Assembly (NCBI GenBank): GCA_012521675.1 | Contig: JAAYLU010000022.1 | Span: 1-37,277 of the forward strand | From: Synergistaceae bacterium | Lineage (GTDB): Bacteria; Synergistota; Synergistia; Synergistales; Aminobacteriaceae | Direction: 5' to 3' | Length of the DNA stretch: 37,277 nucleotides | Notes under the pieces: model-generated | The model's database searches: none | What the model saw: only the letters and a program-made list of their open reading frames with translations | What the model was told of the DNA's origin: nothing | Made by a program: the position numbers and the translations under genes | In this document: in pieces, positions 23,107-24,911 of the stretch | Numbering within the stretch: position 1 is the stretch's first letter | Layout of the letters: each line of letters opens with the position of its first letter

Positions 23107-23180
23107 TGGCTGGGGTGGCTGGAATCGAACCAGCGATCGCGGAGCCAAAGTCCGCTGCCTTGCCGCTTGGCTACACCCCA
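23107..23180 (-). tRNA. tRNA-Gln (anticodon UUG), CCA encoded
   Basis: The minus strand folds as a complete cloverleaf. The acceptor stem TGGGGTG pairs with CACCCCA, and the discriminator is G with an encoded CCA at 23107-23109. The D-arm contains GCCAAGCGGCAAGGC. The anticodon stem GCGGA/TCCGC encloses CTTTGGC, so the anticodon is TTG. The T-arm is CTGGTTCGATTCCAG. The U at the 5' end paired with A is typical for tRNA-Gln. It has its own promoter and terminator. Confidence 0.97.
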
Positions 23181-23279: not shown

Positions 23280-23288
23280 TGGTATGAT
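23280..23288 (+). promoter_or_regulatory. extended -10 promoter of the protease gene
   Basis: TGGTATGAT combines an extended -10 TGn motif with TATGAT, a 5/6 match to TATAAT. The -35 region (TTACGA, 18 bp upstream) is weak, which is tolerated with extended -10 promoters. Transcription would begin at about 23295-23297, which coincides with the ATG at 23297. This suggests a leaderless transcript. Confidence 0.5.
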
Positions 23289-23296
23289 GCGCTCAA

Positions 23297-23803
23297 ATGA
23301 TTGCCATGATCGTCTTCGCATTTTTTCTATATTTTCCCTACGCGTGGTGTCGGCTGAGGGGCGAATCGCCGTCACGCTACGGTCTGCTTTGGAGTCTGTC
23401 CAGCGACGCGGCGCGGGATGTCCTCCTCGTCTCGGTTGTCGTCCTGGTGCCGCTGACTTTTGTCTCCACAGTCTTCTTCCCCCGTTACATGCACCCGCAG
23501 GGGATGGTGTTTGTCCTCAAGGGGGTTCTGTCGGGGCTCGCGGCGGCTGTGGCCGAGGAGACTTTTTTCAGGGGATGGCTGCAGACCCTTCTGTCGGAGA
23601 GAATGCCCGCGTTGAAGAGCATTCTGCTGGCCTCGGCCCTGTTCGGCCTGGCGCACGTCTTCAGGGGCCCGGTGGCGATGCTAGCCTTTTTTCCCGGCAT
23701 CCTCATGGGAGTACTGCGCCACAGGCACAGCTCGGTCCTGCCGGCAATACTTTTTCACTGGTTCGGTAATATTTGGTCCATCTGGTTCTACCCGCAGTTT
23801 TAA
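23297..23803 (+). CDS. CPBP-family glutamic intramembrane protease
   Basis: This is a polytopic membrane protein of the CPBP (CAAX protease and bacteriocin-processing, ABI) family. All signature motifs are present: Glu87-Glu88-x3-Arg92 (EETFFRG), Phe116-x3-His120 (FGLAH) and His154-x3-Asn158 (HWFGN). There are about four to five hydrophobic segments. The 168 residues are short for the family, so it is close to a minimal catalytic core. The substrate is unknown; members process prenylated or secreted proteins, self-immunity peptides or sorting tails. No ribosome-binding site precedes the ATG and a stop codon lies four codons upstream, so the start is well bounded. A secreted protein gene follows after 25 bp on the same strand and is probably cotranscribed. 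The strand differs from the rest of the window. Confidence 0.9.
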   Translation: MIAMIVFAFFLYFPYAWCRLRGESPSRYGLLWSLSSDAARDVLLVSVVVLVPLTFVSTVFFPRYMHPQGMVFVLKGVLSGLAAAVAEETFFRGWLQTLLSERMPALKSILLASALFGLAHVFRGPVAMLAFFPGILMGVLRHRHSSVLPAILFHWFGNIWSIWFYPQF

Positions 23804-23828
23804 GAAAAAACCGAGGGGGGAAGAAATT

Positions 23829-24911
23829 ATGAGCTTCGCCAGGCCCGGAATAACTCGGGGTATTTTCATAATCACGGTCGCCCTGTCGTTCATCTCTTTT
23901 GCGTTCAGGGCTGATGCCTTCATCTTCAGGGTGGAGATCCCCCTGGAAATCGACAAAGAGGCCTCCGCCCTGCTGCCCGGCGGGGAGAGGGTCTCCCTGG
24001 GAATGGTGCGAGCCCTCCCCTCCACCACGAGATGGCCGGGCTACACTGCGTCGAAATGGGCGCCCCCCGGTAGCGTCGCAGCCTCCGCGGTCAACGCGAT
24101 CCATCTGACCCTCTCGGTGGAGGACGGCAGGGGGCGCACCCTGAGCATACTGCCGCTGCACACCGTAGCCCCGGCCGCCGGGGAACGGTCATATATCTCG
24201 CTGGACTCCGTCGCCGGGACGGGGCTGTTCGGCGGATGGGCGCCCCCGGTGGGGACGCCGGTGTTCGTTCGCGGCAGGGACGGAGCGATGACGCCGCTGG
24301 AGGTCCGCGGGCTGCCCAAGGAGGGAGAGATTCTTGTCATCGATGTAATGGAGGACGACAGGCCGTACATCATCGATATAGAGAACCGTCCGGGAGGAAG
24401 GGTGGTCGGCTATTACGGCTCCGGCCCCAGGCTTCTGGCTCGCGTCGTCCGGCCGCTGAGGGGAGTCGGGCGCTTCGGCGGGACGGAGTTCCAAGGGATC
24501 GGCAGGATAAGGGCGAATCACTCCGGCGTGATAGACGTGAGCACTGCGGGAAGAGGAGTCGTCGGGGGCTTCCAGATCCTCCCGTTCGAGCACGCCAAAT
24601 CCAAGGAGATGGCGTCCGCCTGGCAGCTGACCCAGTGGCTGATCGTCGCCTCTCCGACGGACTCGCCCCTGCCGGGCGCGGCCCCTCTCTTCTCTTCGAA
24701 CCTTGTGCCCGGGAGCCAGCTGGAGGACGAATTGTGGGACCTCTGGTCGACCTACGGGCGCAAGCCGCTTGTCCTCTGCCGCAGGGAGGGAGGCCAGTGG
24801 GAGAGGCTGCCCGAGTCATCGGGCAGGAACGATTTCGCGCTGGGAGACCTCACTCATATCAGGTTCTACTCCCCGTTCACGGAGGAGCCCCAGGAGGGCT
24901 TCGCGGATTAA
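23829..24911 (+). CDS. secreted protein of unknown function
   Basis: I do not recognise this family. The 360-residue product has a clear signal peptide: a short basic start, a hydrophobic core GIFIITVALSFISFAF, and a likely cleavage after Ala30 in RADA. The rest has no second membrane helix and only one Cys. It is rich in Gly, Pro and Arg and looks beta-rich. A segment at about 130-180 (VGTPVFVRGRDG, LPKEGEILVIDVMEDDRPYIIDI) and another at 200-250 (VVRPLRGVGRFGG, GFQILPFEHAKS) look like beta-strands with turns. A C-terminal part has ELWDLWSTYGRKP. A G-rich Shine-Dalgarno lies about 8 nt before the ATG. It follows the intramembrane protease gene, so it may be that protease's substrate or partner, but this is inference. 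Periplasmic or surface location is expected. Confidence 0.8.
   Translation: MSFARPGITRGIFIITVALSFISFAFRADAFIFRVEIPLEIDKEASALLPGGERVSLGMVRALPSTTRWPGYTASKWAPPGSVAASAVNAIHLTLSVEDGRGRTLSILPLHTVAPAAGERSYISLDSVAGTGLFGGWAPPVGTPVFVRGRDGAMTPLEVRGLPKEGEILVIDVMEDDRPYIIDIENRPGGRVVGYYGSGPRLLARVVRPLRGVGRFGGTEFQGIGRIRANHSGVIDVSTAGRGVVGGFQILPFEHAKSKEMASAWQLTQWLIVASPTDSPLPGAAPLFSSNLVPGSQLEDELWDLWSTYGRKPLVLCRREGGQWERLPESSGRNDFALGDLTHIRFYSPFTEEPQEGFAD

Follow-up and report, generated by a model that had tools for sequence, protein, structure and literature searches.

A gene for an intramembrane protease and a gene for an exported protein stand side by side on the plus strand of a 37,277-nucleotide stretch of Synergistaceae DNA (the window), and this pairing raises the question of whether the protease is dedicated to its neighbor. 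The first-pass annotation correctly described the two as the only plus-strand protein genes: they are located at 23297-23803 (168 amino acids) and 23829-24911 (360 amino acids), separated by a gap of 25 bp, and minus-strand genes fill the rest of the window. All other plus-strand reading frames that are clear of a longer minus-strand gene are situated in the same gap and are either short or overlapping. A tRNA-Gln (TTG) on the minus strand at 23107-23180, the sole RNA gene that ARAGORN and Rfam detect in the window, provides a landmark between glmU and the protease gene, mrtS. A promoter scan 5' of mrtS yielded nothing useful. The GC content and GC3 of the pair are close to those of the neighboring genes, and there is thus no sign of a recent foreign origin.

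The reading that we consider likely is that the protease, MrtS, trims the tags of proteins encoded elsewhere, that a type II secretion system (T2SS) displays these proteins, and that the neighbor (the partner, in the following) is a separate envelope protein encoded in a non-obligate operon with mrtS. The obvious guess, a protease that cleaves its neighbor, is probably wrong.

MrtS and the Synerg-CTERM proteins

The product of the first gene (23297-23803, plus strand) is a glutamic-type intramembrane protease of the CPBP/Rce1-like type and, as judged from its sequence, an ordinary member of the catalogued MrtS family, whose predicted task is the processing of Synerg-CTERM tails. It matches the NCBIfam equivalog model NF040589 with 227.7 bits (cut-off 130) over residues 2-167 of 168, and PF02517 with 8.5e-19. 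The motifs for which it was initially recognized as a glutamic intramembrane protease can all be read from the translation: EExxxR (E87-E88-x3-R92), FxxxH (F116-x3-H120) and HxxxN (H154-x3-N158). The impression that the protein is very short was mistaken, since the NF040589 model has 170 positions and 168 amino acids is therefore the ordinary length of an MrtS rather than a minimal one. The full-length match above the cut-off, the CPBP motifs and the presence of Synerg-CTERM proteins in the genome all agree with the NF040589 family, and there is no notable difference from it. We found no published experiments on MrtS in the literature searched; a paper by Haft from 2024 reportedly deals with such systems of proteases and tails. 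A distantly related family within the phylum (G041, G045; L161, L162) has a CPBP protease that scores about 100 bits against MrtS and higher against MrtP, under all cut-offs, and that possibly represents an undescribed myxosortase subfamily.

Eight Synerg-CTERM proteins score above the TIGR04564 cut-off in this genome, and none of them is encoded on the contig that carries the pair. Their tails combine a Gly-rich signature that contains a Cys with a hydrophobic stretch, and are usually basic at the end (e.g., GGCSVGFAPAAVLLLAPLFLLKK). GspG and GspL of this genome are encoded on contig C32. Among 151 Synergistota genomes, MrtS exceeds its cut-off in 103, Synerg-CTERM in 108, and the T2SS markers in 112, where a T2SS was called from GspG (TIGR01710) or GspL (NF041617) over cut-off. 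The presence and absence of MrtS and T2SS are concordant in 111 of the 116 genomes rated as good (both in 82, MrtS only in 1, T2SS only in 4, neither in 29; phi 0.89), with a T2SS in 82 of the 83 good genomes that encode MrtS. MrtS and Synerg-CTERM agree in 110 of the 116 (both in 81, MrtS only in 2, Synerg-CTERM only in 4, neither in 29; phi 0.87). As the sampled genomes are related, Fisher p-values exaggerate their independence; collapsing the sample to 49 genera, which corrects for this only in part, gives p 2.5e-9 for the agreement of MrtS with T2SS and likewise for that of MrtS with Synerg-CTERM.

The location of mrtS in other genomes also connects the protease to secretion. Away from the partner gene, mrtS adjoins gspG or a gspG-like gene in three genomes (G053, G056 and G134; L150, L151 and L160) and genes matched as gspJ, gspK and gspL in G059 (L153, L154: G059, G107); in the related G107 it lies beside gspJ-gspK-gspL as assigned by gene order. 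In G053, whose lineage was checked, the partner remains behind fur at the glmU/galU locus while mrtS adjoins gspG. The co-occurrence of MrtS, tags and T2SS, together with the placement of mrtS beside gsp genes, is what the myxosortase model predicts, in which a CPBP protease cuts the tail and the T2SS brings the protein to the surface. These observations are further genome evidence for a Synerg-CTERM pathway that works with the T2SS.

The system resembles the myxosortase MrtX and its MYXO-CTERM proteins in the CPBP protease, the Cys-containing C-terminal tag and the link to the T2SS, and cleavage of the MYXO-CTERM protein TraA by MrtX has been demonstrated experimentally in Myxococcus (PMC11980579). 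However, MrtX is a seven-helix enzyme of the Myxococcota, whereas MrtS is a shorter protein whose score of 38.3 bits against the MrtX model falls far short of the cut-off of 180. Rhombosortase, which co-occurs with the T2SS (PMC3237569), and its GlyGly-CTERM proteins are similar in that many tagged proteins are found per intramembrane protease and in their co-occurrence with the T2SS; but rhombosortase is a serine protease of the rhomboid family with a different tag, whereas MrtS is of the glutamic type and goes with Synerg-CTERM. If the analogy to the MYXO-CTERM model (PMC11980579) holds, the tagged proteins encoded elsewhere would be exported by Sec and anchored in the inner membrane by the Cys-containing C-terminal helix; MrtS, as a myxosortase-type intramembrane glutamic protease, would cut this helix beside the Cys, which by then would probably be lipidated, and the T2SS would then put the trimmed proteins on the cell surface. 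Both the lipidation of the invariant Cys and the surface display are taken from that model. The protease now has a concrete identity and a testable substrate set, the eight tagged proteins of this genome.

The exported partner

The second gene (23829-24911, plus strand) encodes a 360-amino-acid, exported all-beta protein. The statement that it falls into no known family was borne out: the protein has no match in Pfam, NCBIfam or the PDB sequences, the profile of its family has no match in the PDB, and 27 homologues, each compared with Pfam and NCBIfam, gave nothing beyond sub-threshold chance matches. Homologues are present in 129 of the 151 Synergistota genomes and in 104 of the 116 good ones. 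On the basis of these comparisons, the partner represents a strongly conserved exported family that none of the libraries searched describes. Whereas MrtS was already known as a catalogued family, the family of its neighbor is undescribed, and its recognition brings to light a well conserved but unannotated exported protein in most Synergistota. The family is likely confined to this phylum, although this is not proven, since the observation that all loci carry Synergistota names pertains to the best 80 partner loci in a large genome collection, which holds 117 further relatives besides these. A mobile or phage gene was rejected, as the plasmid and viral-contig collections contain no homologue.

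Residues 1-30 (23829-23918, plus strand) form a putative signal peptide with cleavage probably at about ADA/F; the predicted structure has a hydrophobic helix at residues 8-23, and the hydrophobic leaders of the homologues vary as those of ordinary signal peptides do. Apart from this helix the model contains no second membrane helix. None of the 47 partner sequences inspected ends in a Synerg-CTERM-like tail with a Cys plus a hydrophobic helix, and the locus of the partner gives no match to TIGR04564. The first-pass annotation had noted that the partner shows neither a second membrane anchor nor an obvious C-terminal sorting tail, in agreement with these results.

The structures predicted for the window protein (pLDDT 86.5, pTM 0.84) and for another member of the family (pLDDT 90.3) are both mostly beta. 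Residues 30-111 (23916-24161, plus strand) and residues 177-254 (24357-24590, plus strand) look like tandem copies of one module, of which the second has diverged. The first module consists of three strands, a short helix and three strands. When the two halves of alignment A2 are compared in hhalign, the E-value is 1.3e-4 and the score is 29.7, whereas 200 controls with shuffled columns reach 22.6 at most; with the less diverse alignment A1, the halves give p 0.1. The order of strands and helix assigned by DSSP to the two models is alike in both modules. A diverse set of 47 partner sequences shares nine invariant polar residues, which are numbered here as in the window protein after mapping by hand: N89, H92 and S106 in the first module, N186, R228, H231 and Q249 in the second, and H255 and E260 just past it.

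Foldseek searches of the PDB with the two confident models returned no significant match (best E 0.44 and 0.098), and the first model has no match in BFVD. A chymotrypsin-like double barrel, with two six-strand modules and a short helix after strand three, was considered and dropped because there is no such Foldseek match and no recognizable catalytic triad. The beta-rich sequence also bears a superficial resemblance by eye to Peptidase_S55 (SpoIVB); however, the comparison with Synergistota S55 in hhalign gives a probability of 2.7 percent, below 3 percent, with no colinear match, and Pfam finds no Peptidase_S55 match in the partner. A protein of about 600 amino acids with a Peptidase_S55 (SpoIVB-like) domain is found in 38 of the 41 Synergistota genomes examined (L166-L190).

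Conservation and meaning of the gene pair

Both genes are present in 98 genomes, and in 79 of these they are neighbors on the same strand, with mrtS upstream of the partner and a gap that is mostly below 100 bp. The flanks differ: tm91-mrtS-partner occurs at 30 loci, fur-mrtS-partner at 9, mrtS-partner-glmS at 7, and fur-mrtS-partner-glmS at 3. The occurrence of the pair in several upstream and downstream contexts indicates that it was held together through rearrangement. The pair is best read as an operon that is conserved in the Synergistota but not obligate, and that is presumably co-transcribed. To this extent the earlier observation of a pair stands; the suggestion that MrtS is dedicated to processing the partner is not supported.

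The partner is present in 98 of the 103 genomes with MrtS (95 percent), and the two genes are distributed as follows over the 116 good genomes: both in 80, MrtS only in 3, partner only in 24, neither in 9 (phi 0.35). When the genomes are grouped by genus, the association does not reach significance (phi 0.21, p 0.2). The first-pass annotation had named homologues that routinely lack a CPBP neighbor as the observation that would refute its proposal, and the 24 good genomes in which the partner is found without MrtS, most of them also without T2SS and tags, belong to six families. Together with the genus-level result, this shows that the partner is maintained independently, though usually paired with mrtS. 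In genomes without MrtS the partner is often still located between fur and glmS. In some of these genomes, a short predicted membrane ORF with no family match occupies the position of mrtS, with fur on one side and the partner on the other (L145:2715-3017, L146 and similar). MrtS without a detected partner is found in three good genomes.

If the partner were the dedicated substrate of MrtS, cut at its leader or its tail, then the adjacency would have a parallel in the two-gene systems of MrtJ and JDVT-CTERM, in which the gene of a CPBP protease also adjoins that of an exported protein (PMC11980579). However, the neighbor carries the tag in those systems, whereas the neighbor of mrtS has none. 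The absence of a Cys-containing hydrophobic tail from the 47 inspected sequences, the ordinary and variable signal peptide, and the conservation of the partner where MrtS is missing render this explanation highly improbable; with a tagless partner, tag bearers that are encoded elsewhere, and a partner that routinely occurs without MrtS, dedicated processing is not supported. An alternative is that the partner assists the MrtS pathway as an accessory factor, perhaps a chaperone in the periplasm or a docking factor for tagged proteins en route to the T2SS, and that it was kept for another task after the loss of MrtS. The near-universal presence of the partner in MrtS genomes, its presence in 84 of the 86 good genomes with a T2SS, and an adjacency that spans several flank contexts would fit such a role, which we nevertheless consider unlikely, as the partner is kept by 20 good genomes without T2SS as well as by the 24 without MrtS, and G029 and G008 retain MrtS without it.

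It is also conceivable, if somewhat unlikely, that the pairing reflects position only, i.e., that two unrelated genes without functional or transcriptional coupling are left over from an ancestral order fur-mrtS-partner-glmS. This order is still seen at the glmU/glmS locus, where MrtS can drop out of the same slot; however, about 30 loci keep the pair together away from glmS and fur, and the gaps are short. We favor the account in which MrtS acts on the tagged proteins and the partner is not its substrate. The partner would be a soluble protein of the periplasm or envelope with a duplicated beta module, whose envelope role would be independent of MrtS. The adjacency outlasting the changes in the flanks suggests some coupling between mrtS and the partner beyond this account. 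A further reading, which we rate as improbable, is that with the partner a hitherto undescribed family of envelope proteins comes into view for the first time, largely confined to the Synergistota and with an unsolved fold of tandem beta modules and nine invariant polar residues; as an enzyme or a binding factor, the partner would couple MrtS-dependent surface proteins to the envelope.

Two kinds of surroundings of the partner in other genomes weakly favor an envelope role. At five loci that form one group, the partner is closely trailed by a member of an M23 (murein peptidase-like) gene cluster, and second, diverged copies of the partner adjoin a sugar-locus set with genes for a sugar transferase and a DegT-type aminotransferase (G093, G067, G143; L138-L140). 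In three genomes of a distant Synergistota family (G041, G043, G045; L130-L132), the partner is followed by a gene for a hydrolase of the metallo-beta-lactamase fold, and in two of the three a further exported protein without a match is encoded ahead of the partner.
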